DNA of 64,000 bases from Zygnema cylindricum. Taxonomy: Eukaryota > Streptophyta > Zygnematophyceae > Zygnematales > Zygnemataceae. The DNA is taken from assembly GCA_037447655.1 (NCBI GenBank), contig JBBHKE010000771.1, positions 348,342 through 412,341 of the forward strand, in the 5' to 3' direction. Position 1 is the stretch's first letter; each line of letters starts with the position of its first letter. Shown piece by piece: positions 14,700-42,803 of this stretch. The translations under genes and the position numbers were made by a program. The notes under the pieces are model-generated. The model was not told where the DNA came from and did no database searches. It worked only from the letters and a program-made list of their open reading frames with translations.

Positions 14700-15900
14700 A
14701 TGCGGAATGACAGTTTGTCATATCTGACGCTAAAAGCACGACAACACTCAAAGTTCTTATTGACGGTAAACAAGTTGAAAAAACACTTAACGATGTTCTT
14801 TATGTTCTTGACTTCAAGAAAAACCTCTTCACTACTTCGCTCGTAGAAAGCAAAGTTTTGGTTTTGAAGTGTTGCTGAAAAATAGGAAACAAGTAGTCAG
14901 TAAACAAGGTAGAGCAGCACTTATAGGAACTGGTGGTCCAAATCTGATGTATAGGCTTGATATTGCCAATTTTAATGAAAAAGATGTTTAGTATTCGGCT
15001 GTTTTGTTTGACAATAACTCATGGCATAAAAAACTTGGTCATATCCACTATGAAAATCTTGACAGAATGGTTAAAGAAGGTATAAATTCAAGAGTCAAAA
15101 TCAATAGCAAAGAAGAACATTTTTGTGATGGATGTGCTCTCGGAAAGTTTCATAAAAATCCTTTTCCTTTCGAAAAGAGCCATAGAGCAACTAGAGTGTT
15201 AGAAGTAATTCACTTTGATATATGGAGACTGGCTCTGATACCATCACCTGGTGGACTTCGTTTCATGGTGACCTTTACAGATGACTATTCTAGGTTCACA
15301 AAAATCTATTTTATGAAAGAAAAAAGTAAGGTGCTCTCTCATTTCAAATAATTCAAGATATAGAGCGAAAAAATTCACGGGGTTCCTATCTTACCGTTGA
15401 GATTAGACAATGGCGAGGAGTACTTATCACGTGATTTCATCAACTATCTTAAAGAAAACGAAATTTCTCGTCATTTAACGGTACCATATTTTCCAGAAGA
15501 GAATGGTGTAGCTGAGAGAGTTAACAAGACACTATCACATAGTGCTAGATCAATGGTGGCAGACAAAATATAAATGATATATTCTTGTTTGAAGCCTTCA
15601 ATTGTGCGGCATACATTAAAGATAAAATTATAATCTAGAGCAGTAAAAAATGAGACGCCGTAAGAATTATGGACAGGAACCAAACCAGAAGTTAGTCACT
15701 TTAGTGTATTTGGAAGCAATATTGTCATGTTAGATAATTCTCCACTTAAATGGAAAATGGAGCCAAAAGGTGTAGCGTGAATCTTACTAGGCTATGATAA
15801 TCAATCAAAAAGATATAGAGTATACTTATATGATGAAAAAAAAAATCTTTGTCACTAGAACTATTAGAATTAAAGATGAAGAGAAGTCAGTTGATGTCTT
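14700..15900 (+). pseudogene. Copia B integrase
   Basis: The zinc-binding half (WHKKLGHI at about 15022; CDGCALGK at about 15125) and the catalytic core are preserved. The first Asp lies in VIHFDIW near 15207, the second in LDNGEEY near 15400-15420, and the Glu in EENGVAERVNKT near 15500-15530, so all three catalytic residues remain. The frame is open from 15004 to 15351, with a stop at 15349-15351 and further stops downstream. Catalytic residues survive although the frame is broken. Confidence 0.85.
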
Positions 15901-19384: not shown

Positions 19385-20285
19385 TGTTGAAAAAAAGTAA
19401 TTTATATTCAATTTTTAATTTAGACTCTATAGTGAAGAGAGAGAGAGAGTCACCATAGCTGCGGCCATAGTTAGAAAGAAACAGGCAGACAAACAAGCAA
19501 TTAGACAGATTGATAGATTACCAAAAAGCGGGCTTTAGCTGGATTTGAACCTGGGTCTATGGTGTACTATATAGGTACGCCTTAACCCCTTAGGCGTTAA
19601 CGAAACGATACCCATATATGGTTCGGGTATTAATTAAAGTGATATAGAAACGTCACTTGACTTAAACAGACCAAAATTAACGAAACGACATTTATAGTCA
19701 AACGACGCTCGCGGACGCGAATCTAACCGTGTAAAATACATGATCGGACATACGTCGTCGCCCTGCTAAACCCGAATGAATATTTGAAGGATTTCAAACA
19801 GCGCGGCCTGCTTGGTCATGTGGTGACACATCATTAGACGCTGTGAAAGATGGGAGGAGGAACGATGGCTCCCAAGTTGACAAGTGTTAACCAGATGGCC
19901 AAGTTGTACAATGGCCGTACAAAATGTATAATCGGTCACTGTACCTTCTTGTACTTCACACTCTTTTGATTGGCCTAGGGTAAAGTAGTAGGTAGATATG
20001 AGTAAGAGTTAATGGACTTAGCGTATTTGAGGCACCTCTCTCTCGGTGACCTTTTATATTTATATGTTTATATTTGGCTAACCATAACTTACTACTTAAA
20101 GGAGCAAATTCAATGATTCTTTTTGTGTTTGACTCAAGAGAGTATTGTCCTCATAGGGGTGAGGGTGGTCAAAATAGTTTTGTGCCTGGGTGGCATTTAT
20201 TGAGTGAGAAAGGTAAAGGGGCAAATGTTATTCTAGAGACTTTACATAGGCTGCTAATTTTGTGGGTTAACGAAAACCACACAAG
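19385..20285 (+). repeat. Family-T LTR (+ orientation)
   Basis: Starts tgttgaaaaa, like the E element LTR (TGTTGAAACTGG on the minus strand), just after the RNase H stop. It shares with E the purine block, the GTAC-rich core (near 19,915-19,965), the ggacttag block (20013) and the ttttatatttata TATA-like site (about 20,050). A primer-site-like ccttatggg follows at 20286, so it may be the 5' LTR of a further, truncated copia. A tRNA-like sequence lies inside it on the minus strand. Confidence 0.75.
19530..19606 (-). promoter_or_regulatory. tRNA-like A-box/B-box sequence inside family-T LTR
   Basis: On the minus strand, gcctaaggggttaaggc (19579-19595) resembles a tRNA D-arm/A-box. GGTTCAAATCC (19541-19551) is a perfect match to the RNA polymerase III B-box consensus. 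Spacing between them is tRNA-like. The T-arm and acceptor stem do not pair well, so I do not call a functional tRNA. Equivalent positions in five other family-T LTRs hold related sequences, always antisense to the element. Confidence 0.6.
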
Positions 20286-20380
20286 CCTTATGGGTAATGG
20301 TTGGAGGGTAATTTGCCGATTGCTAAAAAAAGTGCACATACGATCAACTATTCCACATTTGTGTAATACCAATGCGATAT
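20286..20380 (+). pseudogene. Primer site and Gag stub after family-T LTR
   Basis: ccttatgggtaatgg (20286-20300) aligns with the half-tRNA primer site ggttatgggccca of other elements. The frame through it reads SLMGNGWRV, which lines up with the QVMGPPSRV start of the element E Gag. After about 80 bases the sequence switches to gypsy G1. This is the truncated 5' end of a copia. Confidence 0.5.
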
Positions 20381-21480
20381 CAAATTGCATCCTATACCAC
20401 CAATAGCGTGCTTGCAGCAGGCTTAAGGTGCGTTTGGTCCCATAGTGACCCAGCTCGGCGTGAATTTGTTATATCACCGAGAGGTGTTCAGTCGAGCGGG
20501 GCATGTGTCTTTGACTGCCGTCTGCTAACAATCAAACTATTGATCCACCTAACCAAATATATTTTTTAGCTCTTTTCTTTACTCGTTCCTCCTCCTCGGA
20601 TGTAGTGACTGGTCGGAAAGGTTCTGACAAGAAGAAAGGAATTAGTGCTCTATCCCTCCATTGATCTACAGCAGAACGGGAGTTGGTTAGCGAAGCTAAA
20701 GAATGTGTGATATAAGACGTTGCTGACATAGTTGCTAAGTCGTTATCTAAATCATGCCGGACTCCATTGTCTGTGGTCCTTGGCAAAGGATTTCTAGAAA
20801 TGTCGTCTGCATTCAGGCTAAGTAATCTTGGACTATGACTTATTTCCACATCATATACTTGTAAAATTAATGCGTATTTCGCTAATTGTCTTGACAGTTT
20901 ATCGTTGTCATCAGCTAACGTAAAGGTTGATGGTTGGTTAGAAGTTTAAACAATTTTTTTTTTTATGTAAAAGTAGTGATGAAAGTGTATATTACCCCAA
21001 AATGTCGCCAAACATTCTCTTCCCCAATTACTGTAATTTGACTCCGCATGATTATTATTTCTGCTTGCGTAAGCGACCACGATTTCTACTCTTGTTAGTT
21101 CACGCTGAGTTAAGATAGCCGCAATGCTAAATTTGCGACCACGATTTCTACTCTTGTTAGTTCACGCTGAGTTAAGATTGCCGCAATGCTAAGCTTTCCA
21201 AAGTCTGTTTGTAAGCAGAAAGGTAATTTGTGATTAGGAGGTTAAAAGATGGGAGCACAAAAAAGGGTATCTTTGAACTTTTGGAAAACGGAAATCTGAT
21301 CAGGTCCTTTGAAAGGGACTTTTTTTTAAGTAGATCGTTCAATGGTGAAACGACATTGCTGAAACTAGGGACAAAATCTGTGATAAAAATTAGCTAGTAT
21401 TAAGAAGGCTCGAAGACTCGTGAGATCAACGGGGGTAAGTAGTTTGTTGATAGCATCAGTTTTTGCTTTAAGTGGTGTGA
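20381..21480 (-). pseudogene. Gypsy G1 RNase H and linker to integrase
   Basis: The RNase H part (about 20,850-21,480) aligns with the better-preserved G2 region at 31,433-31,900. The linker (20532-20849) starts ISHSPRLLSLNADDISRNPLP, matching G2 RPSLLSLNADGISQNPL, the end of RNase H in gypsy elements. A 62-bp tandem duplication disrupts the RNase H frame. The integrase-proximal tail runs to 20,381 and is then cut. Confidence 0.75.
21073..21196 (-). repeat. 62-bp tandem duplication in G1 RNase H
   Basis: Two units, 21073-21134 and 21135-21196, both start gcgaccacgatttctactct and are almost identical. G2 has one unit at the matching place. 62 is not a multiple of three, so the duplication shifts the frame. 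The near-identity shows it is recent relative to the divergence of G1 and G2. Confidence 0.9.
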
Positions 21481-22329: not shown

Positions 22330-22630
22330 CGATAAATGACTAACCTAATGAGTAAACAACCGGTGTTTCCAGTAAGCAGTTTTTCCAATGGTGCCAGTTG
22401 CGAGCAGGAATGGTTGCGGTCAAGTGACGAGGTGTTGAAATATGACTAAAGGGAGTAGATTGGGCAGCATTATATGCCAGAATGGACCATGACATGTGAC
22501 TAAGATTCAAAAAATCGTAGATGGTGAGTTCTAGAGAAGGTTTTATAGACGATGGAAAGAGGAAAAAATAAAAAGGTGTCTCTCTAAAGGTGACTAGAGA
22601 TCGTGTAGTTATAGGTTTTGAAAATGATGA
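22330..22630 (-). pseudogene. Gypsy G1 region between methyltransferase and RT
   Basis: A connecting stretch of the polyprotein, matched in G2 (about 32,820-33,120) and partly in G3 (about 41,560-41,900). Conserved blocks include the ctatggcttgttcaaaagctagctgttcatc segment near 22,300 and the ccatgacatgtgactaagattcaaaaaatcgtagat segment near 22,490. I recognise no domain in it. Conservation among three copies suggests it was once a translated linker or the N-terminus of RT. Confidence 0.5.
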
Positions 22631-23079
22631 TGCATTTCCCCCCCAGCTGGTTGTGACTGATGGATTTGTGCGTAACGACCTGTTGCAAATATGAGGCCTA
22701 AAACAAATGAGAGAGATTGAGGGTCCATAACACAACCCGCAAAAATGAATCGCTGTCGTTTTGTGAGACCACGACCTGTTGCAAATCCGAGGCCTAAGAC
22801 AAATAAGAGAGATTGAGGGTCCATGACACGACCTAAAAAGATAAATCGTTGTCGTTTTGTGAGACCATGTGTAGTAGTAGTGTTGGGAACGAAATACATA
22901 AGGTGTTCTTGTTCTGTGGCTGTAGGTTCATCTTGGCCGCTGTGTGAATATTGTATGAGCACGCCAGGCCCATCACTAGAGAAAGTATGAGAGTGTGGAT
23001 AAAACACTAAAGAAGGGAGAACTTTGAGTGGCTGACCTGAGAAGTTAATATTGTAATTCCGCTGGTGATCAAGGTGCAA
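22609..23079 (-). pseudogene. Methyltransferase C-terminal part of G1 (motif X, duplicated)
   Basis: This frame continues the methyltransferase downstream of a frameshift. It reads TEQEHLMYFVPN and then LTKRQRFIFLGRVMDPQSL, which fits the terminal motif IX/X region of DNMT3-like C5 methyltransferases, where an R-Q-R-x-L-L-G block returns the chain to the AdoMet site. A 96-bp in-frame tandem duplication (22677-22868) gives two copies of that block. G2 and G3 have one. A 65-bp tandem duplication upstream shifts the frame, separating this part from the main domain. Confidence 0.7.
22677..22868 (-). repeat. 96-bp in-frame tandem duplication of methyltransferase motif X
   Basis: Units 22677-22772 and 22773-22868 both begin gacctgttgcaaat. 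96 bases is 32 codons, so the frame is kept. The units differ at several positions, so the duplication is not the newest event. Each unit encodes one LTKRQRFIF...GRVMDPQSL block. Confidence 0.9.
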
Positions 23080-24032
23080 GGGAGAACTTTGATTGGTTTA
23101 CTTGAGACGTTAATGTTGTAATTCGGCGAGTGATCAAGCTGTAGGCATATTTGGACTTTGTGAAATCGAAGAAGTGCAGTCTGAATATCGGTAAGAAAGG
23201 ATCTGACATAAAGATTTCTTTCTCTAAAGCGACCAATATCAATCATGTTGGTCCATTTAGATCGGACCCAATGAGCTAAGGACCCGTGACGAGCGCCATC
23301 AATGATAAGAAAAAGACTAATTAATGTTTCTATCCGTTTGTAATCAGCTAACACTGTAGGTCGAATATCGTTATAGGCTGCCACGTTTTCCAAAATATAT
23401 CCCAATGGTCGATCTAATGATTGCAAAAAATGCATGATACAAAGTAATTCAAAGAAAAGTTTAGTGCGAGGATCAGCTAAGCCGAGATCTTTGCGTGCTC
23501 TTGACATGTCGTGACACTCCCAACCCGCATAAAAAAGATTGATTAGTTCCACATCGAGGAGGTGTTGATTGCTTATCAATCGAATATCTTGAGGCAAGGC
23601 CGTATGCATGTGAGCAAAGGCAGATTTGGGGAAAAGATCTGGATATTTTTTGTTTAAAAGATTACAGTGATGTGTTTGGGCTTTCCAAGCTAAAGGGTCA
23701 GTGTCAACTAAGTAGTAGTGCTTGATAAGTACTTCGTTGCGAAAGCATGAGTGTAGAGAGGTACCTATGCTTGCGAATAGGTATAAAATAACCAGACTAT
23801 CTTGATGAGGTTTGACTTTAATTGGCTTCCAATTGATGGGAAGAAATCCGAAAGGATCTACAAAAATGAAAAGAAAAGATAGAACTCGCGATAATGGAAT
23901 CTGAAGTGTGTGTTTGTACATGTGATCAAACTCGCGAGAATCATTTAAAAAACCTAGATTATCGAAAAGTTCAGGCAAAGAAAGACTGTCAGGCAAAATT
24001 TCCTTTGCGGATATAAAATGAAAAAATCTCAA
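23007..24032 (-). CDS. C5 DNA methyltransferase domain of gypsy G1
   Basis: A 341-codon open frame. Motif I (VILYLFASIGTSL, residues 81-93) is the AdoMet-binding loop. Motif II is YLVDTDPLA (107-115). Motif IV is AGWECHDMSRA (169-179), with the catalytic Cys at residue 173 (codon 23514-23516). A GLADPRTKLFFEL block (184-196) follows, then motif VI ENV (215-217), then GARHGSLAHWVRSKWTN (246-262), which fits motif VIII. The order I-IV-VI-VIII-X is that of DNMT1/DNMT3 enzymes, not the rearranged DRM type, and spacing is closest to DNMT3. The residue before the catalytic Cys is Glu instead of Pro. The domain sits between protease and RT in the Pol polyprotein. The family role would be cytosine methylation of DNA, perhaps the element's own copies. 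Confidence 0.8.
   Translation of the reverse strand: MRFFHFISAKEILPDSLSLPELFDNLGFLNDSREFDHMYKHTLQIPLSRVLSFLFIFVDPFGFLPINWKPIKVKPHQDSLVILYLFASIGTSLHSCFRNEVLIKHYYLVDTDPLAWKAQTHHCNLLNKKYPDLFPKSAFAHMHTALPQDIRLISNQHLLDVELINLFYAGWECHDMSRARKDLGLADPRTKLFFELLCIMHFLQSLDRPLGYILENVAAYNDIRPTVLADYKRIETLISLFLIIDGARHGSLAHWVRSKWTNMIDIGRFRERNLYVRSFLTDIQTALLRFHKVQICLQLDHSPNYNINVSSKPIKVLPCTLITSGITILTSQVSHSKFSLL
23016..23145 (-). repeat. 65-bp tandem duplication in G1 methyltransferase
   Basis: Units start at 23016 and 23081 with ggagaactttga. Both encode NYNIN-x-S-x-KP/QP-L/IKVLP-like peptides in different frames. 65 is not a multiple of three, so the duplication breaks the methyltransferase between motifs VIII and X. 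It explains why the main frame ends shortly after 23,080. Confidence 0.85.
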
Positions 24033-24354
24033 ATCCCACCGAATTTTCGAAATATGCTGGGACAGATTGGGTTGCGTGAGCCATAATGGGTTTGGGTTGT
24101 CGTGTTGAAATTAGTGGTAGACAAATTTTCTTTTACGGATAATTCGAAAGACGCTAAAAAAAAATCTAATTGTACATATCAACGCCGCCTCCTACTTTGA
24201 AAATAACATATTGCCCCACTAAACAATCATAATCACTATATTTAGTGACCAATGCGTGAGCACGGATTTTCGTAAAATCATATTTTGTACCATTTTGAAA
24301 CCTTAAACAGAGTGGATCCTTTGTAATGCCCAAAATTGGTTCGGTAGTTCCTGC

Positions 24355-24600
24355 TTATGTGAGTAAGCGTGTTGTGGTGGACTGAAGTTTATCAGCTATC
24401 AAACGTAGTTTTAGTGAAAAAGATGACCCAATAAAAATAGGTTTTGCACCGGTGTCCATAAGTGGTAGTGATGGTGTGACACCATGGACTGAAAATGCCC
24501 TCTTCCCATTATCCAAAAAACTAATATGTGGGTCAAGTGAATTTCGCTTTTCGCCATAGATTGGCCTAAGAGCGTCCATATTACGATTCATCTGTAAAGT
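24355..24600 (-). pseudogene. Gypsy G1 aspartic protease
   Basis: The frame reads VHGVTPSLPLMDTGAKPIFIGSSF. Asp-Thr-Gly with hydrophobic flanks is the retropepsin active site. The G2 copy has PLMDTGAKRVILGCSY at the same place. The frame ends at 24,355 after STTRLLT. The stretch 24,033-24,354, between protease and methyltransferase, is collinear with G2 but holds stops. Confidence 0.8.
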
Positions 24601-25959: not shown

Positions 25960-27008
25960 ATAAGGTATGGGCAAAACTATAACTCTAAGACCTCTGTCGG
26001 TCCTCAGAGTAGGTAGCTCACACGAAGCCTCTAGGATAAGCGTGACCCTTTTGTGTTTTAGCAAGAATAACTACCACCCTGACAGACAAAAACTTTGACC
26101 ACCTTCACCCTGTGAAAGCAAGACTCTGCTGAGTCGATAGCAAAAAGAATCTATAAATTTGCTCCACTGAGTAGTAAGTTATGAAAGGTAAAACTTGACA
26201 TTTTGTACAGAAGCTCTCTGGGAGAGAGGGTCCTATCTATGTAATTTTTCTAAGTCCTATCTCTCTCTAAAACTCTATCTACAAAAGTACGCCACCAATC
26301 ATAATACTGTATCGTACAGAAATGTACAGGCGCCGATGTACTTTCTATACGGCCATTGTACGACATGGCGAATAAGTCGACACATGTCATTTTAGATTCG
26401 ATCTTGAAATCCCTAAAGATGTCGTATACCAATATGCTTGTGCCACGTGTCATTCAATGTGACGTTGACCGCAAACCGCCGAAAACTAATCCACAATCTT
26501 GGCATGCCTCGCGACTGTTTGATTAAAACGGATTTCAATTGTAGTCGTCATAAATACTTGCGCGATATTTGTTTCGCCTTCGTAACGAATTCCGCGGTAT
26601 GTGTTTCGCATATTCCAAACGCCGTACATTACAAACTGCTTCTATGCCCAAATATCCTGTTAAATGAAATGACCTACGTGTATAGATTTATCTATTTATT
26701 CAACCCTATATCGTAAAACTTTGATTCTAGTCTAATTGGTTAAGGCTACCGGCTAGAGTAAACTTTGACGGATATATGTACCAGGTTCAAATATTGGGTT
26801 CGTCAAGTTCTATTTTGGTAAATCTACCAATCTAAAGTTTGTCATCGTCTAGATAGCATAGGCAGCCATGGCTCTATCTCCCTCTCCAACTTTTAGTGAT
26901 TGCGACAAATGTGGGAGCTGGAGAGAGGAGTTAGAGGCAAACTGCATGTGATTCTTTTCTGCATTTTACACAACCTACAAAATACTAAAATAACCTTTAA
27001 TTTTTACA
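25960..27008 (-). repeat. Family-T copia LTR inserted in gypsy G1 Gag
   Basis: Matches the E element LTR over its length: a left block with acgaagcctctagg (26,014), the ccaccctgacag block, the GTAC-rich core (26,305-26,370), the tRNA-like sequence (26,720-26,800), the purine-rich gagagaggagttagag block and right end ttttaca. G1 Gag lies on both sides and is uninterrupted in G2 (36,250-36,280). The flanks agaat (25955-25959) and agaac (27009-27013) may be a target duplication. The left end is uncertain and may include a primer site, so it need not be a pure solo LTR. Confidence 0.7.
26720..26806 (+). promoter_or_regulatory. tRNA-like A-box/B-box sequence in family-T LTR
   Basis: On the plus strand, tagtctaattggttaaggct (26728-26747) fits the A-box consensus and ggttcaaatat (26784-26794) is a slightly degraded B-box. 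The LTR runs on the minus strand, so the motif is antisense to the retrotransposon, as in the other family-T copies. Confidence 0.55.
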
Positions 27009-27506
27009 AGAACCATGAAGGTAACGCCCGAGAAAAGAGAAAACGATACGCATGTTAACTCTATCTTGATAACGGAAAGCTAGATCTCGCATTTCAGTGT
27101 CGAATAACATTGGAAAATGAGATAAACTCAAAGTATGCTTTATTCCGGAAAAGCTAAATTGAAGTTTACTAGGATTATCCATCGGTGTGGAGGACATCGA
27201 AAGAGAAGAGTTAGTCGAATTGAAAGCCTGAATCAATGTTAACAGAGACCAAAAAGAAAGAAAACCTGAATCGGGTTCCTTTTCTTTATCAACCTCTTCC
27301 ACAAGTAGAGTGGATAAAATGGATTACAAAGATAAGACGGTGGGTAAATCTAAACGAGTAGAAGACCCTCTAGATTGAATTAAAGGACTTAACGTCAAAA
27401 GAACCGAAATTGATAAATTCAATTGATTCAAATTTGATGAACGGAAAGTTTCAACACTACGTGTAGATCCGTATGAGTGGTCTAGATTATCCCAATCAGT
27501 GGGCAT
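27009..27506 (-). pseudogene. Gypsy G1 Gag N-terminal part
   Basis: Starts MPTDWDNLDHSYGSTRS at 27506, matching the G2 start near 36,767 (MPTD, stop, DNVDYFFGTTRS). This conserved start marks the beginning of Gag just inside the 5' LTR. A frameshift near 27,320 leads to a second frame (26997-27302). The copia LTR then cuts the gene. No known domain is visible, as expected for a gypsy matrix-like region. Confidence 0.65.
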
Positions 27507-28291
27507 AAAAATGACTGAGATAAAAACCTAATCCGCTAATAGATATGCCTTATACGACGTGTAGCAAATGCCATACCATTCCACATACGTAGGAAACAAT
27601 CTCAACCAGTCTCTAACAAGGCCAAGATGGCCAAATCTGGTCAAGAGGTCGCTTTTACCGAAACCTCTACCTTGTAAACGACTGGGCAAGGCAGAAAAAC
27701 CACATCTATAAAGGCAGAAAATTGCTAAACAAACACCAAGAGGTGTAGATTTAAAGTTCTAAAGACAGAAAATAGTTCTATCCAAGGCCACCAACAGCCA
27801 GATCTAACAATAAAATTCCACGCCAAACAGTTAATAATAAAAACACAAGACCACTCATAGCTAGATGACAAGCATAAAAAGCGTCGACAGTGCAGATGCT
27901 CGATACAATTTAGACGAATGGGACCCAATCCACTCACGTACCCTCTAAACGATCAACAAGTATTCTGACACGCGCTTGTATCCGCAAGGTATTGTGAACT
28001 TACAAACCAATCTTTGCAATTTGGTGATTGCCAAGGGTGAACAGCGGTTGTTCGCTCCAATATGAGTTTTGCAGAGCTCTAAATAAAAAACGAATATGCT
28101 CTACTATCTCCACTTTTGGGTGAAGTATGTCACAATGTGAAAGATCGATGCATTCGATCAACAACGAGCTAGCAAGAAAACCCTAAATACCGAAATTAAT
28201 GTAGCATATTCTTGGTTAAAAAACTGGCCAATGAGATATTTAGGTCAACTAACAAGCAAACAATAATAAAAATCGCAAAACTATTTATATA

Positions 28292-28324
<33 letters not shown>

Positions 28325-28325
28325 A

Positions 28326-28416
<91 letters not shown>

Positions 28417-29835
28417 AGTTTATTTTTTTAAGCAAACAAGTACAACTTAGAATAACATTCCAATATGCAAGGATCTATTACCCGATCACACACACACATA
28501 CATACAAAAATAATGTAAAATTCAAATAAGAAAAAATAAAGAAAAACTGGCAATTTTAAATTGTACAGAATATAGAAAAATTGTCAATGTAACATTGCGG
28601 AATATAACATCACAGACAATGTTAAATCGCATACAATAAAACAAAAGCGACAATGACAAATTACACGTAATAGAAAGTGACACAATTTTAAAATCACAAT
28701 AATATTAAGCCAACGGATAGCCACTAGGCTCTTTGGTCAGTTTATATTCCTTACAGAAGTTCAATAAATAAAGATTTAACCTAATATCACAACGCATAAA
28801 CTGAAAATGTAGCAATCTGCTAGCAAGTCTAAAATAACTAGATTTAGTTACACACAAAACATGTAACGGAAGCGAACCCTTATTTAATTTCACCAGTAAA
28901 CCACACAAACAAACCCAAAACTGTCCAATCTTAATCCAAGGTTCAGCAACAGCCTGAGAAAGAAGGTTGAGCAGCAATCTACTTGATACGACGAGAGAAA
29001 AAGTGAAAGGAAACTGGCTAGGCTTAAGCGTGAGCCGCGTTGATTAAATTGCAAGGCATATTACAAGAAAATGTGAGTTCGAGCTAGGTAGCAGAACGCT
29101 TAATTACCAAATAATAGTCACTAAACTATACTGACAACTTCACAAGAAAATAATAAAAGCAAAAGTCAAATCTTCAAAAAGAGAGAGAACGAAAAAATGA
29201 AAGCATGAATTCCTGTGCTCTTGAAATTGCGAGCACATAATTCACCTAAAATTCACTAAGTACAAAGTCTACAACTGAGCGTGTAACCTACTGTAGATAC
29301 ATGTGTTCCATGTAGTCGTCTGCGCCTAGTTTAGATTTTGGCCAAATGGCGACCAGAATCATATGCCTTGCGTTACAAAATCTACATCCTAAAGATAAAA
29401 ACCCTTCGTACGCTACATGTCAATGCGTGATACCTCCAAGGGTCCACAACTTAAAATAGATCAATAGTGTCGCCGTGTGCAGTTTGAATCTTGTTTGTTC
29501 GTTCTTCTTCGTCTTTAGCGGCCGTTAATGCCCATTCGAATTCGCAGTGGTTTTGACATACTTTCACGTTGGAGCTTCAGTTCGCCCATCGTACGTACAA
29601 AACTTTGTCTTGTTCGCGTGAATTTCGACGCCTAACGAATAGAGTTACAGACTTAAAACTGTTTGCGGGCTTCACGTCACCTGACGACTTCACGTACAGA
29701 ATCCAATCAGCCAGCCGGTTTCACGGCGTCAACGAAAATATGTATGGTCCTGTCTCTACTGAAACATACCAGAATATAAATTAGTGTGGCTAGTTTTTAC
29801 AGACCATTTTATGCCAGTTAAATGCAAGTCGGTTT
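27507..29835 (-). repeat. Gypsy-G LTR and leader between G1 and G2
   Basis: Collinear with 36,770-39,093 over more than 2 kb, with many indels. Shared blocks include ggcaaggcagaaaaaccacatctataaa (27,690), ccctctaaacgatcaac (27,941), ggtgattgccaagggtgaac (28,021) and the aattagtgtggc block near the outer edge (29,780). It lies downstream of G2 and upstream of G1 Gag, so it acts as LTR for both. The inner boundary and primer site were not resolved. It contains a TA microsatellite. Confidence 0.65.
28286..28413. repeat. (TA)n microsatellite
   Basis: About 128 bases of nearly pure TA dinucleotides with three small interruptions, inside the gypsy-G LTR. The G2 LTR has no comparable tract at the matching place (about 37,500-37,620), so it expanded after the copies split. 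Confidence 0.97.
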
Positions 29836-30495
29836 ATTCCCCCTTTTAGCTCTTTAGCGAGCAGAGGAGCTTGCGAACACGACTAGAAGCTCGCGACATC
29901 CGTGGCAAAACCATTGACTATCCAGAACTGCCAACAATGGTGGCACTAAACACTCCATGTTAAACCCGTGATTGCAATGATCACAAAGTAACATTGTAAG
30001 TTTCCTCGTTCAATCGATGACAAAAAATACATGCTGTCGCCTCCGTTATAGCCATCCGCATAGGATCCATATCCTGCGACAAATCTGGTAAACATCATGG
30101 AGCACAATTCTTGGAGTGCTGTCGAAAAGTCCTCGTGTCCTCTCTTTGTAATCTCAACATCCCGTTTGGATCCACCTCCATAATCCGTAGGATGTGTGCA
30201 GAAACATTTGTGTCCAAAGTGGCAAAAGATTGCTTGAAAGATAAACATAATCTTCCAAACAAAAAGGCTTCTGTTGCGGCCTTTAACTGCCGCTTCGAGT
30301 GGTGGCAAACCGAAATGTGTCTCGATGTTGGGCAATCTATAGTCTATTAAAAGCCATGGGCATTTCACGGGTAAAAAGCAAAGCAAGACGAGTAAGTTCT
30401 TCCAAAAAAAATAATGTCAAACATTAGTGGGAGAGGAAACTTGCATCTTTTTGAATATTGCAATCGAGAAATGGTTGTCGCCCAAATAAAACATA
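29836..30495 (-). other. Terminal region of G2 with unexplained 146-codon ORF (29946-30386)
   Basis: Between the integrase remnant and the LTR lies an uninterrupted 146-codon minus-strand frame, unusual in a region where other frames are broken. Its product begins MLCFLPVKCPWLLIDYRL, has several Cys/His residues in the middle (HFGHKCFCTHPTDYGGG) and ends in a hydrophobic stretch (CYFVIIAITGLTW). I recognise no family, and G1 lacks the segment. It could be a third ORF of the element, a captured piece or chance. A plus-strand frame (30111-30350) overlaps it and is probably a shadow. Confidence 0.4.
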
Positions 30496-31083
30496 TTACG
30501 GGTTGAAATTAGCCTTACTAGCTTGACTTGACATGTGATATCCCATGGAAATATAGCCGAGAGACTCGTCTTTAACCGAAATGTGTTTCTCTAAGCAATG
30601 CTTACGCAAGGCGCGCTTAAATGTCTGGACTGCACCTGCAGCTAGGCCATCGGCTTGGGGGTGATCCCGACTAGTACATTGATGATCAATGAGAGCCTCA
30701 TCAAGCATCTCTTGAAATTCTCCCGAAATTCTGTACCTTGAACCGTTGGGACCTCAGCTGAGAACCGTATCTCATAAGAATACTTTATTTAAAAGTTGCG
30801 GTGATTAACTTAATTTTCTTATGAGGCAAGGCTACAACTTCTACCCACTTACTGAAGTTTTTGATCATAATCATGATATACTGTTTTCCTCTACGTGAGA
30901 TGGGAAAAGCTCCGGCTAGATCAACAAACCATTGATAGAATAAATCCCTAATGGCTTAAGGTTGGAACGTAGTCTGCCGATTAAAGAAAGAAGTTTGGAG
31001 AGGGTCGCAAGTGGCACACTTGTGTAAAATAGCAACAACATTGGCTTACATTTCTGACCACCAATACTGTGCTTGAACTAGGC
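30496..31083 (-). pseudogene. Gypsy G2 integrase (degenerate)
   Basis: Pieces in family order: the zinc-site end HKCATCD near 31,000-31,025, the first catalytic Asp in WFVDLAGAFPISRRGKQY near 30,890-30,935, and the C-terminal core DHQCTSRDHPQADGL with AVQTFKRALRK near 30,600-30,690. The HPQADGLxERxxxT block normally contains the catalytic Glu. Here it reads LAAGAVQTF, so that Glu appears lost. Several frameshifts separate the parts. Confidence 0.75.
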
Positions 31084-31900
31084 TTAACGTCCGCTTGGTA
31101 CTATAGTGACCAAGCCTGTGTGAATTTGCTCAATTAGAGAAAGTCGCTCTGTAGGACGAGGGACGTGTCTATGGCTCCATCTGCCAACAACCAAACTAAA
31201 GATCATCCGAGCCAAAGGTAGTTTTGGCCCTCTTTTTAACTCTGTCTTCTTCGCCAGAGGTAGTACTGTCCTTAAGGTCTGGGTCGATAGAAATAGTATA
31301 AGAGGCCCATTACCCCAAAGATCTGTGGCGGGATAAGGCTTTGGAATAGAAGCCAGACAATAAGTAAGATAAGACTCTACTAACATGGCCAGAACATCCT
31401 CGACATCGAAATCTGTCGAACTCCGTTATCCGTCATACGAGCAAAGGATTTTGGGATATTCCGTCGGCATTTAGACTAAGCAGACTCGGTCGGTGAATTA
31501 TTTCAATGTCATATTCTTTTAGAATTAAAGCCCTTCGGGCTTGTTTCCTAGAAAGCTTATCGTTAATCATCAGCCAATGCAAGGGCTGATGATCAGTTAG
31601 GTGTGTGAAAGGTTTTCCATACATATAATGGAAGAAGTGAACGACTCCCAAAACCGCGGCTAGACACTCTCCTTCGTAGCTATTGTAATTTGATTCAACC
31701 CTGTTATTGCTTCTACTCGCATAAGTAACTCTCTGTTCACCTCTTTTTGTGTCAGGATGGCAGAATTCCGGGTTTTCCAAAATCTGTTTGGAGACAAAAA
31801 AAGAGTTTGTCATTGAAAGAGGAGAATTAGAGCACTCGATAAGGCGATTTCTTAATTTTTGAAATGCCAAAATCTGATCACGACCCCATGTAAAGGCCAC
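31084..31900 (-). pseudogene. Gypsy G2 RNase H and linker
   Basis: 31433-31900 is an open 155-codon RNase H: MAFTWGRDQILAFQKLRNRL, then VTYASRSNNRVESNYNSYEGECLAAV, VHFFHYMYGKPFTHLTDHQPLHWL with the catalytic Asp, and the exit block IIHRPSLLSLNADGISQNP. The Glu of EGECLA and the Asp of TDHQ are present. The linker ORF (31084-31386) leads to integrase and matches the G1 linker at 20,532-20,700. This is the best-preserved domain of G2. Confidence 0.85.
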
Positions 31901-31908
31901 TTCTTTCT

Positions 31909-32620
31909 TTAGAAAACGTTTAACGGAGGTGTGATTGTGATGAAATTAAACACGAATCTTGAATAACAATAAGCAAGTCCGAGAAAGGCTCGCAGACTTG
32001 TGAGGTTTGTGAGAGCTGGCAATTTAATTATTGCCTCTACCTTTGCTTCGAGAGAAGTGATCCCTTCAACCAAAATAAAATGGTCGAGTGAGGACACTCC
32101 CTCGGCTCCAAAGGTGCATTTTGCTGGATGACATTTTAATCTGACCATTTTTAGTCCAATCAATACCTATTCGATGTGAGTTGCGTGATCTTCAATAATA
32201 GCAGAGGCAATGATGAGGTCATCGATGTAACATCTAGCAAACTTAGAACCTCGAAACATAGAGTCCATGACTTTTTGAAATACCGCCGAATCATTTTTCA
32301 GTCCAAATAACATTACGACCCATTCCCATCGAGCGTCACTACCCGAAAGGCAGTTTTATGCTGATCTTTTTCCCCTGTCTCAATTTGATTCAATCATTGA
32401 CGGGGTCAAGGATACTAAAATACTTTGCTCAACCTACGTGATCAAATTTTTCTTCACACATTCGATATTCAGTAAAATTACCCTCGGAATCCTTTTTCCA
32501 AGGCATGACAGTGAGAGCTGGAAATGTGGAGTCTTCCTCCTCTAGTTCAACACATCGTGTGTCTACCTTCCCATATAGTTTTATGTTAGACGATGTTTTA
32601 GTTTAAATTTTAGGAAGTCA
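31909..32620 (-). pseudogene. Gypsy G2 reverse transcriptase (YIDD intact)
   Basis: The active site reads FARCYIDDLIIAS (near 32,205-32,245), where G1 has YIDY. Downstream, MVRLKCHPAKCTFGAEGV and SLRAFLGLAYCYSRF (31,909-32,163) are the connection region typical of gypsy RTs. Upstream blocks to about 32,600 align with the G1 fingers but contain stops and a short deletion. Confidence 0.85.
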
Positions 32621-32639: not shown

Positions 32640-33430
32640 CTTATACGCGGTGTGGCGACCCAAATCGTTCATAGAAAAAGCAAAGGCAATAACATTTTGT
32701 AGAACGTCTTTCTGAAATTTTTATTCGGCCTTTGTTAGATTAGTGTCAAATTTCCACTTAGAAGCTTCAGGGTTGTCCGTTGTCATGGTTTCCATAGCTT
32801 GTCCTAAAGCCAACTACTCATCTGCGATAAGCGCTTGCTCTAACTCGTAAGCCGTAGGTGTTTGTTTAAGGCAATTCACCGAATGATTCCAGCTGCGTGT
32901 TGGAAAAGCAACAATCCAATTAGGAGTGGGTGGATCATGTATGAAACTTGCAAACTTGACAGCCGTGTATGCGGGAATACACCAAGACATATGTCTAGGA
33001 TTAAGGAAATCGTAGATAAAGATTTCCGAACAGGTGGAATTCGAAAAGGAAAAAAGAAAAATTGAAATGTGGTCCCTTAGAGAGTAGAATGGAAATATTT
33101 ACTAAGTGATGCATTCCCTCCCCCATCTGGTTGAGACGGATGTTTGTGAGAGTAGCGACCAATTTCAAACCTAACACCTAAAACAAAAAAAAGACTGAGG
33201 GTCCATGACACGACCTAATAAAGTGCATCTTTGACGTTTTGTAAGACCAGAAGCGGGTGTAATGCCATGGATGAAATGCATGAAGTGTTCTCGCTCAGTA
33301 AAGGTAGGCTCTTCGAGCTCGCTGGTATGAATGTTTCGGAGCATGTCAAGAGCGTCATTAGAAAATGTGTGTGAATGTGGGTAACAAACTAAGGGAGGAT
33401 GAACCTTAAAGGTTGACAGAAGACATTGAT
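32640..33430 (-). pseudogene. G2 methyltransferase C-terminus (motif X) and linker to RT
   Basis: Near 33,195-33,250 the minus strand encodes GLTKRQRCTLLGRVMDPQS, matching the motif X block of G1 and present once. Upstream, REHFMHFIHGIT-like sequence (33,260-33,300) matches EQEHLMYFVPN of G1. Single-copy status shows that the 96-bp duplication is private to G1. The rest of the segment aligns with the G1 linker. Confidence 0.65.
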
Positions 33431-34330
33431 ATTAAAATTTTTATGACAGTTCTTTTGAATGGAAGGCTGCCCCTTATAGAAAGGAAGCAGGGCAGTCTGA
33501 ATGTCCGTAAAAAGAAGACAAACTGACAAGTTGGCCTCACGGAGTTGACAAATGTTTATCACGTTCGTCCATTTAGAGAGAGCCCGATACGCTAACGAAC
33601 CATGGCGAGTGGCGTCAATATAAAGGGGCGGACCAATTAATTGTTTAATTCGTTGATAATCAGCCAGAACCGCAGGTCTTCAATCATTAAAGGACGCAAC
33701 ATTTTCCAAGATATATCCTATTGGATTATCTAAAGTTTGTAGAAAATGCAGCATGCGAACCAATTCAAAAAATAATTTAGTGCGGGGATTGACCAAACCA
33801 AAAAATTTCCCTGCCCGAGACATTCCTTAGCACTCCTATCCGCCAAAAACTAGATCGACCGGCCCAATTTCTAATAAGTGATGGTTCCTCACAATCTGGA
33901 TGTGTTGTGGGAGGGTAGTATGCATATGCTCGTATGTAGATTTTGGTAACAAATGCGGGTATTGGGTATAAAACAGATTACAATGATGTAATTGTGCTTT
34001 CTTTGCTAACGGATCAATCTCAACCGTATAATAAAATCAGATAAATAATCCATTCCGCAAACATGCTAGGAGGGAAGTGCCTATTCCAACGAAAAGGTAA
34101 AAAATAACCAATCCATTTGGATTAGGTTGCAATTGAACCGTATTATAATAAATGGGAAGAAACCTCGAAGAGTTTGTTGGGAGTGGGATTGGAGGAGAGA
34201 TCGGAGAAAGTGGAATTGACAAGGTTTTGATATAAATTCGGTCAAATTCGCTCGTATCTATAAGAAAACCTGTGTCACCGAAATTTTTAGTAAGTAAGAA
34301 CTATCGGGCTAATTTTCTTCAGCTCACAAT
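33431..34330 (-). pseudogene. C5 DNA methyltransferase domain of gypsy G2
   Basis: Homologous to the G1 enzyme. Motif I reads LVIFYLFVGIGTSLLA (34,065-34,120). Motif II has EIDPLAKKAQ (near 34,010). Motif IV reads VDLVFGG-stop-EC-stop-GMSRAGK, with the catalytic Cys codon at 33830-33832. The two stops are one transition away from TGG (Trp) and CAA (Gln). A GLVNPRTKLFFEL block, ENV (33,697-33,715) and DATRHGSLAYRALSKWTN (near 33,570-33,625) follow. Glu precedes the catalytic Cys, as in G1, so that residue is ancestral to both copies. Confidence 0.8.
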
Positions 34331-34533
34331 GAATGAAATATTTCAGCCCCCACCGAATTCCTTGAAAATGTAAGTATGGATATGGTCGAATTAGCCATAA
34401 AACGCATGGGCTCTTCAACAGATATTAGCAGAATACAGATTTTGCGTTCTGGGAAGTTAATAGGCCTATAAGAAAATGTCTTATCATGTAGGTCAAACTC
34501 AACTCCTTACACAAAATATAACGTCCTGTCCCA

Positions 34534-35224: not shown

Positions 35225-36767
35225 GGATGTGTAAAACTGTGCGAGTTATGCATGTAAAATGTGGCTTCATTTGAGTCATAAAGGATGCAAATCGTTCCTT
35301 CATCATAGCCGCCATTTGCGCTTGCATTTCCAAATGCTCTCTTTCTTCAGAATACCTTAGGTGTAGTGGTGTTTTTCTCTAGTTCTTTAACCGGTTGAAC
35401 AAGTTTTGCAGATCGAGCGGGAATGCCACCTATGTTAAATTGGTTCTGATAGGAAAATTATAGGTTCTACATATCACAACTTTAGACATAATGTTCGGTT
35501 TGCTTGCAATATGTACAGTTAGCAGTTTTGTCTGGAGACATTCGGGCATCATCCCCGTCTTCCCCCGTCGAAAACATAATCGGTTTCCAAGAGCAACAGG
35601 TGGGGTCGTCATAGGTAAGACTTTAAGAGGTCGTTATTAGGGCGAGGATTGTTCCACGGTGGAACAATCCATTCTTTCGAGACCGCTTTAAGACGGTATA
35701 GGCTTCCCACCAACAATTTTGCATTTCGTATTCCACGGCATGCTTGGCGGCTTGGTCGAAAGTGAACATCAAGCCGTAGGTTTGAGTCATGCTACTCTGG
35801 ATAAATTTCTTTGACTGACTCAAAAACAGTCCTACATATTTCTGGACATCTTCAGCATTCGACATTAAGTCTGGCAATGCTTCACGAAGAGTTTCCATAC
35901 GAGCACGCATGGTTGGGGCCGTCTCTCTTAATTTCTGTTCGAAGTTCATTAACTCACGAATTTGGTCAAGGTTTTGCATATGGTATTCCCCTTGCAACAT
36001 TTCAAACATCAGAGAGAGCGAATCCAATATAAGGATCGTCATCGCTTGTCTTGCTGCGATTCGAGCACGCAGCTATATGGAACTGTTACTGTATTTCTCC
36101 AATTACTGTTGTAATAACATCACCGTTGAGATCAAAGACTTTCGAAATAGCCGGTTGGTAGGAAATTTATGGTTGTCCTATGATACCAAAACTCCTAGTG
36201 AAAGCTGGAGAAAACTTTGTCATCGCATGGACACAATCATACTTGGGGGAATAAAGAGTAAATGCCAACCGTAAAGGTAACGGCCTAAAAGAGAGTTAGC
36301 GACCCATAGGTCAAACCGATTTTTGTACTGATATGCAAAATCACGCATTTAGGTATCGAATAACATTCGGAAATGAGATAAGGTCATGGTGTTATTCATT
36401 GTTCAAAAACACAAATGAAGCCGACCCACTCCCTCGTATGTGCAAGCCATTTCCAATAATAGAATGATTAGGGCTAATAATAAATTTGTAATTTGTGGAA
36501 ACTAAAAAGATAATGAATTCGAATTGGACCGGCCAAAAGAATCGTGGTGAGATTCTTCCTCGAAAAATGTGCAAAAGACCGATGATAAGAAAGATACTGA
36601 TGAGAGAGAAGATCGAACCGAAGGGAAAATTTGACCTGAGATATTAGGGAAAAGATGGTCCAAAAGACTAAGTAAATCTGATCGTCTTGATTCTGTGGGC
36701 CTAAACAGAGCCGACGATCGAGTGGTTCCGAAAAAATAATCGACATTATCTCAATCAGTGGGCATAA
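35225..36767 (-). pseudogene. Gypsy G2 Gag
   Basis: Capsid-like core in 35623-36042: MFEMLQGEYHMQNLDQIREL, MRARMETLREALPDLM, SNAEDVQKYVGLFL and EMQNCWWEAYTVLKR, a helical gypsy Gag pattern. Downstream, a CCHC zinc knuckle is visible at about 35,480-35,530 (CTYCKQTEHYV, stop, SC). The N-terminus starts with MPTD near 36,767, with the frame broken by a stop right after. The gene is longer and cleaner than in G1 because no copia LTR interrupts it. Confidence 0.75.
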
Positions 36768-39093
36768 AAATGATAAAACCAAATTACGACCTGATAGAAA
36801 AATCGATCTATACGATAGGATTCAAATGCCAAACCACACCACTCACTTGTCCAATCAGCCAATCAATCTCTAATAGGGCCTCGATGGCGAGATCTATCAG
36901 AAAGCAGTATTACGAAAACCTTATACCCTGCAAACAACGGGACAAGACCGAAAAGCCAGATCTATAAAGACAAATAACTTACTATCTAAGCACTCCCAAG
37001 TGCAAATCTAAAGCGGCACAATCCACAAAAAAACCAACCATTGTCTCTAATGGCAAGATCTCCGGAAGAAATCTCACACCAGGCAAAGCAAACTCAACCA
37101 AGGTCATTTATAGCCAAATAACAAGCATGGATGGCTGGACAAATGCAATGTTCAATACAAGTGGATTAACACTAATCCACCCCAGACACGATCCCTCTAT
37201 ACGATCAACCAACTACCTTAGCACGCGCCTGTACCCGCAAGGCATCGTGATACTTACATAACACTCTTAGCAATCTGGTGATTGGAAAGGGTGAACTGTG
37301 GTTGTTCACTACAACCGAAGTCTTGCAGAGCTCCCGAAAAAAAATCTGCTCCACTAACTCCACCCTATAGTGGAGTATGTCTCAATGTGAGCAAACGATG
37401 CCCCTTATAAAAACCAAAAAAATAGAGGAAACAAAAACCAGATACTTAAATTAGTGTAGTATATCGTTGGTCGAAAATTGGCTAATAAGATAAAAACATT
37501 AACCAACAAGCAAATGGTAATTATAAATGTAAAACTAGTAATAGATTTTTGGAGAAATGTATTTATAAATATATGTTGTTGATTTTTGAATATTTTTTTT
37601 TCTTTTTATTTTAACCAAAGAAAACTGAAATTGAAATAAAACATAATGAATTGAAAATAACAATGGAGAATGAGACAACAATTTTCAAGTGCAGGATACA
37701 AAGCAGATGGATGGTCACTAGGCCCCACGGTCTATTTATACTCCTTGATAGAGTTATCTTATTGATAATAATCTGAATTTACACTTAAATAAATTAAATC
37801 AAAACATAAACAACCGAGAAAGACAAACAAAAACTGAAAATGACAATATGCCCAATACTTATGAAGTTTGAGATAACCAAACTCAAAAAATGTACATAAG
37901 CCAAATAGAAATAAATACAAAGTCACAAGAAATAAAAACAACAAATCAATAATCCCAACATGCAATTTCCACTTACTAAAGTTTAGCCACAGCTGGGGAA
38001 AGAAGTTTGAGTCGTGAGAACGCGGTCTAAATCCACTCAAAAAGACGAGAAAGTGAAAAGAAACCGTGTAGGTCTTGGCCGAAGCCGTATAGATTAATAT
38101 GTAAGGCTTTAAAAGATATTGATAATGTAATCGAAACTAGACGCTTCACGGAAAGGCAGAAAATCACCTCTTAGCTATCTAGACAATTTACAAATAAAAA
38201 TATAGTTGCTGAAAATCCTCAATACTGAAAATAAATCAATAAATAATTATTGCACTTGAACACTGTGACCAGGAAATAATCTATAATAAACTAAATAACA
38301 AAAACTACGCCTAGCGAAAACCAGCAAATAAAAGTACAGAGTGCTATGCAAGTATTTGCGTCTTATTTCGATCTAGCCAATAAAATGCCCGAATCTTATG
38401 CCTTACGTTACACAATCTATAACCTACGGATTAAAACCCTTCATATCTACATATGAACGCATGAACCTCTAAATGGTTCATGATTTAAAATGGTCCATTC
38501 ACGTCGCTTCATCAGAACTGACAGCCGATTTGTTTGTCACTCGCGTTGACGGTCTAGATGTGATGTTACAAAAAATTGCATACTCTGCGTCGACGGCTAA
38601 GATGCTACTCCACACGAAATGATTAATATTTGCTGTCGGCCGAAATTCACGGGAGTGAAAGTTGGTACCTTATGATTATTTATACTGGCGCAAATTTGAA
38701 AATGAGTCTTCGGTGAATATTTCGGGAAATGAAAGTAGGTATGGTAGGATCGTAGGTACGGTCTACTTTGTCATCGCGCAAATTCCAAAAAATGTAAGTA
38801 GCACGGTTTACGTGAAAGATCGAATCCACCGTCGGCAAAAATCACGCAGAATATATATTGCACGGAAGACGTGAAATGACGAAATCCATCGTCGATGGAA
38901 ATCACGAAGATGTATGTGGTACGGTCCAACTCGTTATCGGCAGAAATAACGGCCAACGTAAATATGTACGGTCGGCCAACGTAACTATGTACGGCCCTTG
39001 AAAACCGAAATACACCAGGTTGCAAGTTAGTGTAGCGCTTGCGCGTCCTTAAACCTAAATACAAATATTTTAAATGGCAGACGAGATTCGACA
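36768..39093 (-). repeat. Gypsy-G 5' LTR and leader of G2
   Basis: Collinear with 27,507-29,835. The outer end lies near 39,093, where the minus strand begins TGTCGAATCTCG. A related copy near 62,370 begins TGTCGACC. The outer ~450 bases (38,560-39,010) are unusually rich in CG dinucleotides and contain degenerate ~60-bp subrepeats. The inner end and primer site are unresolved. Confidence 0.6.
38620..39005. repeat. CpG-rich degenerate ~60-bp subrepeats at the LTR edge
   Basis: Repeating units carry an accgtcggcaaaaatcacg-like core followed by a gtacgg block. Examples start near 38,827, 38,885 and 38,930, with weaker units upstream from 38,630 and two short units at 38,956-38,998. CG density is much higher than in the AT-rich surroundings. 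A related CG-rich edge is present at 29,510-29,760 and 62,120-62,310. Confidence 0.6.
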
Positions 39094-40346: not shown

Positions 40347-41239
40347 TGCAATTCTATGGTCTTCATTAACCCACAGAATGAGCAGCCGATGAAAATTATT
40401 ATTCTAAAATAATGTATGCCCTTTTTTGTTACTCCATGAATAATTGTAACGTTAGCACACAAGTATTCTGACCACCCTCACCTCGTGATGACTCGACTCC
40501 TCTGAGCAAAACGCGAAAAAAAATATTGAATTTTCTCTTCTAAGCAGTAAATTATGGTTGGTCGAAAATGACATTTATAGTTACAAACTCTCTTAGAAAG
40601 AGGTGCCTAAACTTCATCAAAACTTTGTCTGCTTACTCTGAGCTATCTACTATTAAAACGTTAGACCAATAAAAAAATTGTATTGTACAAAAAAATATAG
40701 TGGTTGATGTACTTTTTCTACGGCTATTGTACAATATGGCCTTGCGGGTAACGTCGTCAGATCAAAGCTATGGTTCCTCCTCTTATTTTCTATGGTGTTC
40801 TATAATGTAGTGTCATGTGACATCGCGTGACAGTGTCTCCAAATGTCGCCAAAAGTTCACTCCACTTTGACAAATATGAGGACGGTTGTCATATGAAATA
40901 TATTTACATGGTTTGATTTGCGTCCGTGCTCGTTGTTGGTTCATATATGTTTTTTCGTCAGTTTGTTCCGTTGAATGTATTCGTTAGTGGGTAACATTTT
41001 ATTAACGTATCAAACCCTATATGTATAACAATTTTTCTATGATTTGATAGATAGGGCGACATGCTCTCTGGACTGTATAGAATTTATGATCAAATCTAGG
41101 CCAGTCCAACATTTTGGCAAATACTAAGTCTACTAGTTTCTGACTAAGGAGGCAGCGATGGTTTGTCCCTGACCTTCTCTCAGTCTCTCTCGAGTCTTAT
41201 CAAAATGAAAAGTGAAATATCAATTATTTCTTTTCAACG
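40347..41239 (-). repeat. Family-T LTR of copia K
   Basis: Matches the E LTR in order: a cacagaatg end block (40,372), the ccaccctcacc block (40,473), the ctctcttagaaagagg repeat (40,588), the GTAC-rich core (40,680-40,735), a degraded tRNA-like part (41,045-41,110), the gaccttctctcagtctctctc block and a right end ttttcaacg. The primer-site remnant ggtgggctataact (40333-40346) follows on the minus strand. Confidence 0.7.
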
Positions 41240-42393: not shown

Positions 42394-42803
42394 TTGAGGT
42401 CTCCATAGGCCTTCGGATTATGCAGCTTTTACCAAACCCCTAGGATAACCTGACCCCTTCTTGTTTCACCAAGAATTATTGCCACCCTCGCAGACAACAA
42501 CTTTGACTAACCTTATCTTGTGAAGACAAGACTCCCCTAAGTAAATAACAAAAACAATCAGGTGATTTGCTCCACGAGCATTAAGTTATAGATGGTCAAA
42601 GATGACATTTTCTATAAGAGTACTCTTAAAGAGAGACGAATATCTCAAATTTGCCTAAGTCCTAAACCCCTCTCTAAACCTTTAACTACTAGAGTACATC
42701 ACAAATCAAAATCTTGTATCGTACAAAAAGGTATTGTGCTGGTGTATTTTCTGTACGGCCATTATTAGGCATATCAAAGAAATTGACGCTTGCCATATCT
42801 TGC
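42394..42803 (-). repeat. Family-T LTR of copia H, left part
   Basis: Matches the family-T LTR from the gaggtctccataggcc end through the ccaccctcgcagac block and the GTAC-rich core (42,718-42,768). It stops where copia C begins. Its continuation is at 46,458. The two halves together make one LTR of roughly the family length. Confidence 0.65.

Follow-up and report, generated by a model that had tools for sequence, protein, structure and literature searches.

A fossil gypsy-type retrotransposon of Zygnema cylindricum belongs to a family with a predicted DNMT3-type methyltransferase and a C-terminal PHD finger

DNA methylation is normally a weapon of the host against transposons. The closest described retrotransposons with a DNA methyltransferase (DNMT) in their own coding frame are KnitGypsy-Dnmt3 of Klebsormidium nitens, where DNMT3-related domains lie in the Pol frame of gypsy elements, and SymbioDIRS-Dnmt3 of Symbiodinium, where a DNMT3-type domain in the Pol frame is combined with terminal repeats in the order A-coding-B-A-B (both from the covered parts of de Mendoza et al. 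2018, PMC5890265). Here, we analyze a stretch of 64,000 nucleotides from Zygnema cylindricum (contig JBBHKE010000771.1, positions 348,342 to 412,341; hereafter the window), in which a minus-strand element, G1, carries such a methyltransferase. G1 is a defunct member of a large gypsy-type family, whose predicted polyprotein comprises gag, protease, DNMT3-type methyltransferase, reverse transcriptase (RT), RNase H, DDE integrase and PHD finger in this order. As the family fits the text description of KnitGypsy-Dnmt3, its kind is already known. An earlier sequence-only reading of the window had proposed that the family belongs to, or parallels, the charophyte case; a parallel is supported, with a DNMT3-type domain in a gypsy Pol and split repeats in both (PMC5890265, covered parts).

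The methyltransferase frame of G1 runs from stop to stop over 367 codons (24110-23007, minus strand), slightly further than the 341 codons of the earlier reading. Searched with the Pfam profile DNA_methylase (PF00145), as that reading had suggested, it gave a significant match (E 5.7e-6, 26.4 bits, cut-off 22), and all 25 PDB sequences matching it up to an E-value of 1 were DNMT3A, 3B or 3C (best 5.6e-4). The motifs claimed for this frame are all present, in what we take to be motif I (ILYLFASIG, ~23789-23748), motif II (VDTDP), motif IV (AGWECHDMS), motif VI (GYILENVA, with the ENV at ~23402-23379) and motif VIII (~23303-23235), but motif IV reads W-E-C-H and not P-C-Q, with Cys199 as the catalytic cysteine (codon 23516-23514). 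Motifs IX and X were found in a different frame (23097-22609, minus strand), as had been claimed for motif X. This continuation contains an internal tandem duplication, matches the corresponding part of two further window copies, G2 and G3 (tblastn), and is in frame in the intact genomic copy L009 described below. The frame break is flanked by short tandem duplications (22675-22771/22771-22867 and 23013-23076/23078-23141), and the motif order from I to X is linear, so that the domain is not rearranged. The location of the domain inside a gypsy element was confirmed by the RT that follows it (21868-21485, minus strand; RVT_1 E 4.8e-18), whereas the protease claimed on its other side was recognized only by eye, as an aspartic-protease-like stretch with the motif LPLMDTGA (24170-24560, minus strand, approximate limits); in L009, the piece preceding the DNMT matched Asp_protease_2 below the cut-off (E 1.6e-3; 19.5 bits, cut-off 24.3).

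A second large copy, G2 (~37543-29860, minus strand), is colinear with G1. Its DNMT domain (33392-34415, minus strand) is broken by 4 stops in the main frame 34282-33392, which the G1 frame matches with 53% identity (tblastn E 4e-93). By itself, the G2 domain matched PF00145 (E 5.6e-7, 29.7 bits, cut-off 22) and DNMT3A in the PDB (2e-7), and motifs IX and X follow at 33119-33407 (minus strand; tblastn E 1e-22). Separate profile matches of the two copies rule out a chance motif match, and the predicted identity as a C5 methyltransferase domain is close to certain. Both copies are broken fossils, and G1 holds an insertion of ~0.9 kb relative to G2. Since their colinearity extends from ~28289 in G1 and 37543 in G2 across gag, the protease-like stretch, DNMT, RT and RNase H into the beginning of the integrase, the DNMT is an old part of the element.

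The source genome (352,776,454 bases in 2,689 contigs) was searched with the G1 DNMT as query, giving at least 111 scored matches out of 1,482 first-look candidates, all with E-values of 1.1e-111 or better and, the query's own copy aside, with identities of 56-77%. This number is a lower bound, as G1 itself is among the matches listed but G2 and the DNMT-bearing copy C561 are not. Of these at least 111 copies, 51 were read: 25 distinct ones from 28 loci (L001-L028, including 3 duplicates) and 26 as DNMT stretches only. A set of 20 loci was selected chiefly because their open frames were long or their stops few, and these loci are hence not random. The search for intact copies suggested by the earlier reading was successful: L009 is a single open frame of 2,395 aa with the DNMT inside Pol. 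Scanned against Pfam in five pieces, it contains, in order, a zinc knuckle (zf-CCHC, 21.2 bits, cut-off 20.8), the weak protease, the DNMT (PF00145, 47.5 bits, cut-off 22), RT, RNase H and integrase (RVT_1, RT_RNaseH and Integrase_H2C2 above their cut-offs; rve 48.1 bits, cut-off 32.6) and, as its last domain, a C-terminal PHD finger (40.9 bits, cut-off 24). The first piece, which covers the gag region, had no Pfam match. A second genome query, the RT of L009 (P0013), gave 150 scored matches out of 2,914 candidates. Among the best 50 of these 150, 23 have a listed DNMT match within 5.5 kb; the other 27 are uninformative about DNMT-free sister elements, as the incomplete DNMT list can miss a copy (C561 is one of the 27, yet bears a DNMT).

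The methyltransferase is of the DNMT3 type. In a tree of 16 sequences (two relatives, P0005 and P0009, left out), G1, G2, seven metagenome relatives and DNMT3A were split from DNMT1, DNMT2, HhaI and three other database DNMTs with support of 100/99. The same split, again with 100/99, was obtained after adding nine genome copies and leaving out G2. The trees thus place the family with DNMT3A, apart from DNMT1, DNMT2 and HhaI; a long-branch warning applies to them, and they do not settle the branching order within the DNMT3A-containing group. In the PDB, a profile of G1 and G2 matched DNMT3A at 6.6e-8, with HaeIII (0.019) and DNMT2 (0.03) as the best non-DNMT3 matches, and the best match of L009 was to the catalytic domains of DNMT3A/B/C (2.7e-10). 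With these domains the family shares the motif order and, by eye, the W-x-N of motif VIII. They differ from it in having Pro, not Glu, before the catalytic Cys and in lacking an extra stretch between motifs II and III, which the alignment shows in the window family and seven relatives, and not in DNMT3A, DNMT1, DNMT2 or HhaI. No ADD or PWWP family was among the Pfam matches of the L009 frame at E 0.1.

The relatives P0001-P0008, proteins from ENA contigs, fall within the DNMT3 group like the family, and seven aligned rows share the stretch between motifs II and III; unlike the family, these seven rows keep Pro-Cys and form a separate clade (100/99). When full-length polyproteins were sought with a longer query, P0001 and the generic DNMTs P0011 and P0012 were the sole matches, and a scan of viral contigs gave 37 pattern matches, none of which was confirmed. 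An RNase H apparently fused to P0008 by eye had no Pfam match, and we do not claim it. P0003, P0007 and P0009 appear by eye to have a common stretch upstream of the DNMT, without a Pfam family; they possibly represent other DNMT-bearing elements from another host.

A match to the PHD finger was present in 17 of the 20 loci (none in L013, L017 and L024) and, as a remnant, at the C-terminal end of G2 in the window (29860-30003, minus strand; 66.7% identity to the L009 finger, E 2.9e-18). Two of the 17 are doubtful: in L023 the match is confined to a short, stop-containing piece, and in L021 the finger, like the RT, lies on the opposite strand from the DNMT and therefore belongs to a neighbouring copy. 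The closest solved relatives of the finger are those of PHF12, Lid/KDM5, BAZ2B, WSTF and PHF21A. Several fingers of these types read the unmodified tail of histone H3, which we take as a lead only. Among the titles listed by literature searches that included PHD, none concerned a retrotransposon combining a DNMT with such a finger, and the term "PHD" is absent from the main text of de Mendoza et al. 2018, figures and supplements aside (PMC5890265).

The main catalytic residues are largely kept. The catalytic Cys was found in all 51 copies read, the Glu of ENV in 48, the Asp of motif I in 47 and the two Arg of motif VIII in 42 and 41, respectively. Between G1 and G2 (291 codons), the proportions of synonymous (pS) and nonsynonymous (pN) differences were 0.767 and 0.270 in frame, as compared to 0.416/0.379 and 0.281/0.432 in the shifted frames; we quote no ratio of the nonsynonymous to the synonymous rate (dN/dS) for this pair because dS is saturated. 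Among 16 stop-free copies, the median dN/dS of the DNMT was 0.216 (quartiles 0.167 and 0.278; Nei-Gojobori, 40 of 120 pairs with dS of 0.02-1, the other 80 being outside this range or saturated and dropped), and that of the RT, among 14 copies, was 0.105 (25 of 91 pairs). The pairs are not independent, and stop-bearing copies were excluded. These values indicate that the DNMT is under purifying selection, somewhat looser than that on the RT.

The terminal repeats were examined in nine loci with extended flanks. Six of them (L009, L011, L012, L014, L015 and L026) have the split order A-frame-B-A-B, which also occurs in L020, taken without extra flanks; it was not seen in the truncated window copies G1 and G2. 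Since the identity of the A pair ranges from 100% over 931 bp in L009, 99.6% over 1,388 bp in L014 and 99.5% over 1,475 bp in L012 through 97% in both L015 and L026 down to 80% in L011, some insertions are recent and others old. All six split-repeat loci start with TGTCATGCC and end with GCACGACA, and five of the six are flanked by a 4-bp target duplication (TTGG, CCCT, AAGG, CCAT and ACTC; chance ~0.006 per element). Five of the six also have the palindrome GACAGCTGTC at the B1|A2 junction. A run of G at or just before B1 is likely the polypurine tract. No phage-integrase family was found in the five L009 pieces at E 0.1 or better, whereas rve was. Short tandem repeats, possibly a regulatory array, lie in or beside the A repeat (L009:256-442, L010:738-1058, also in L012 and L014).

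These features can be arranged into a candidate integration route. RT would start the second strand at the G run, which would give the terminal repeat B-A; the ends of the resulting BA-coding-BA molecule would join in a circle-like intermediate, and the integrase would open this circle at the GACAGCTGTC palindrome within one repeat, leaving A-coding-B-A-B with TG...CA ends. Opening of a circle at a palindrome inside the repeat would explain DIRS-like repeats without a tyrosine recombinase. The target duplications suggest DDE integration from such an intermediate, a proposal that we put at slightly under an even chance.

As for function, the DNMT, being part of Pol, would travel with RT and integrase and could methylate cytosines of the element's complementary DNA (cDNA) before integration, so that a new copy would arrive already marked, while the PHD finger fused to the integrase would dock on histone H3 tails and steer the choice of insertion site. 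Marking of the cDNA is favoured by the domain order, the selection and the kept catalytic residues; that the DNMT methylates the element's own cDNA is plausible from these sequence features, if somewhat less than probable. The combination of cDNA marking, PHD-steered insertion and circle-like entry is our best overall explanation, tentatively held and falling just short of an even chance. Animal DNMT3 joins a methyltransferase to a zinc finger that reads the H3 tail. A more specific version, in which one retrotransposon holds a writer-reader pair of a Glu-Cys DNMT3-type writer and a PHD finger on an integrase that makes 4-bp duplications and opens a circle at a palindrome, is doubtful. If it were true, mark, address and entry route would all be encoded by one transposon, and the logic of animal DNMT3 would have been rebuilt.

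Several observations weigh against this explanation. The full repeat set is missing in three of the nine loci, with only the B pair in L010, only an A-like pair in L028 and neither in L016; the old copy L011 has no 4-bp duplication, the palindrome is absent in L026, and circular DNA has not been seen. A greater loss of CpG from the DNMT elements would have been a sign of self-methylation, but none was found: their CpG observed/expected ratio is 0.87-0.90, compared to 0.41-0.79 for the four copia regions nearby and 1.13 at 38.0-41.9 kb. As the DNMT elements are not CpG-poorer than the copia regions, heavier methylation has left no visible mark. When the K. nitens enzyme was expressed in yeast, no methylation was obtained, a result that its authors call inconclusive (PMC5890265, covered parts). 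Finally, the residue preceding the catalytic Cys is Glu in 49 of the 51 copies, with Lys and Val in one each and Pro in none, which may lower or change the activity.

This last point also carries the strongest rival explanation, namely that strong catalytic activity has gone and the domain persists as a module binding nucleic acid or a partner, as DNMT3L is in animals. To our knowledge, Pro before the catalytic Cys is near-invariant among C5 methyltransferases; it occupies this position in all 14 comparison rows of our alignment, and Glu-Cys is present in open-frame copies as well as in fossils. Glu in place of Pro at so sensitive a site puts the activity in doubt, though not the descent. The looser selection on the DNMT than on the RT points the same way. 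A purely structural domain, however, need not keep the Cys, the ENV Glu and the Arg of motif VIII at the frequencies found here, and we regard loss of catalysis as rather unlikely. Alternatively, the enzyme could act in trans on host chromatin and damp silencing or expression around the element, or slow its own spread. The high copy number could supply many expressed sources for such an effect, and host-level effects are discussed by de Mendoza et al. (PMC5890265, covered parts), but the enzyme sits within Pol beside RT and integrase, a position that speaks for the nucleic acid of the element itself as substrate and makes action in trans improbable. That nucleic acid could also be the element's RNA rather than its DNA, as raised for the LINE enzymes of dinoflagellates in the covered parts of the same paper (PMC5890265). 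Searched alone in the PDB, the relative P0001 indeed matches tRNA methyltransferases of the DNMT2 type best; the family, by contrast, matches DNMT3 far better than DNMT2 and groups with DNMT3A, and RNA methylation seems quite improbable. That a host DNMT pseudogene came to lie by chance inside a retrotransposon fossil could be thought of only from the broken window copies, and is refuted by the shared position in G1 and G2, the many genome copies, the open frame of L009 and the selection.

The remaining parts of the two window copies, all on the minus strand, follow the order of L009. In G1, they comprise the C-terminal part of RNase H with a linker (20532-20945; tblastn to the G2 frames 31433-31945 and 31084-31425, without a Pfam match of its own), the N-terminal part of the integrase, then truncated (20232-20528; 58.6% identity to the L009 integrase, E 1.8e-34), a gag-region remnant (26997-27323; 27011-27125 matches G2 36267-36381 at 70%, no Pfam match above cut-off) and a 5′ repeat/leader region (27486-28289), which is 67% identical over 826 columns to that of G2 (36745-37543). 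G2 further contains a broken RT (32074-32446; 69% identity, E 2e-36 for 32343-32074), an RNase H (31433-31945; RT_RNaseH E 1.2e-19), the zinc-binding part and core of the integrase with stops (30592-31176; 71-91% identity to the L009 integrase, E 2.5e-74) and, within the colinear block, a gag-region remnant (35623-36072; no Pfam family above cut-off). Two fragments complete the set: G3 (41926-42384, minus strand), with the C-terminal part of the DNMT and motif X (tblastn E 3.9e-11 and 6e-16), and G4 (618-794, minus strand), a stretch upstream of the DNMT core (tblastn E 9.4e-9). A dispersed repeat of ~70% identity occurs in two orientations (25981-26390, 42390-42796, 19854-20279 and 40357-40782) and resembles solo terminal repeats; one of its copies is situated within or next to the G1 insertion and another near the truncated 3′ end of G1. 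A near-perfect palindrome of ~135 bp at the 5′ border of G1 (28282-28417) is perhaps a foldback element. A canonical tRNA-Met primer site was considered, but its 4 window matches with up to 2 mismatches, one of them in G2 at 36177, compare to 3.4 expected and were judged to be chance.

Outside G1 and G2, the window is largely degraded copia. Two old copia-type elements have repeat pairs that are 12-14% diverged (6190-6754/11638-12208 and 52873-54137/58600-59610), and a perfect TGGTATCAGAGC at 15232-15243 (minus strand), presumably the usual copia primer-binding sequence, lies near a copia element; the number of its matches with up to 2 mismatches is at chance level. The copia region 54200-58600 has a CpG observed/expected ratio of 0.41, the lowest of the nine regions computed. 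In both copia repeat pairs, C/T changes are more common at CHG and CG than at CHH. Across four repeat pairs of other elements, C-to-T changes reached 0.371 at CHG versus 0.175 at CHH (p 5e-6), with 0.275 at CG (p 0.007), and a fifth pair outside this pool (1730-2691/2655-3661) goes in the same direction more weakly (CG 0.456, CHG 0.353, CHH 0.259). An excess at CG and CHG is expected under methylation of both contexts, which is a plant-like pattern.

In a genome with numerous gypsy copies that carry a DNMT, some of them open-framed and with near-identical repeats, the function of such enzymes can be put to the test in recent insertions. A concrete hypothesis on targeting comes from the PHD finger, and the Glu-Cys site lends itself to testing a residue regarded as near-invariant. 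The occurrence of split repeats alongside a DDE integrase and 4-bp duplications raises the question of the integration route, which the description of the K. nitens elements poses as well (PMC5890265, covered parts).

Compared by description only, the family agrees with KnitGypsy-Dnmt3 in the DNMT in the Pol frame, its DNMT3 type, the gypsy domains, the A-coding-B-A-B repeats and the absence of introns, and both are under purifying selection, with Ka/Ks < 0.2 in KnitGypsy-Dnmt3 and a median of 0.216 here (PMC5890265, covered parts). The host genome of K. nitens is listed with 104 Mb (PMC9915684, covered parts); the one analyzed here is larger, with 353 Mb. Neither target duplications and the palindrome nor the Glu-Cys site, at which no literature search was aimed, were found in the covered parts of PMC5890265. 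SymbioDIRS-Dnmt3, which resembles the family in its DNMT3-type domain and repeat order, encodes a tyrosine recombinase, whereas the family has a DDE integrase (rve) and 4-bp target duplications (PMC5890265, covered parts). The same holds for DIRS/PAT elements, whose split direct repeats A1-B1-A2-B2 are described in the covered parts of PMC4157794 and which use a tyrosine recombinase where the family has rve. The arrangement of the PHD finger has a counterpart in the DNA transposon Ginger1-9_HM, where a PHD finger stands behind a gypsy-like integrase core; that element carries a Ulp1 protease domain, and neither RT nor DNMT, both present in the family, is mentioned for it in the covered parts of PMC2836005. 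Chromoviruses, which are gypsy elements, likewise have a chromatin-reader fold at the C-terminus of the integrase. There it is a chromodomain, for which L009 had no match in Pfam, and the family described here carries a PHD finger instead.

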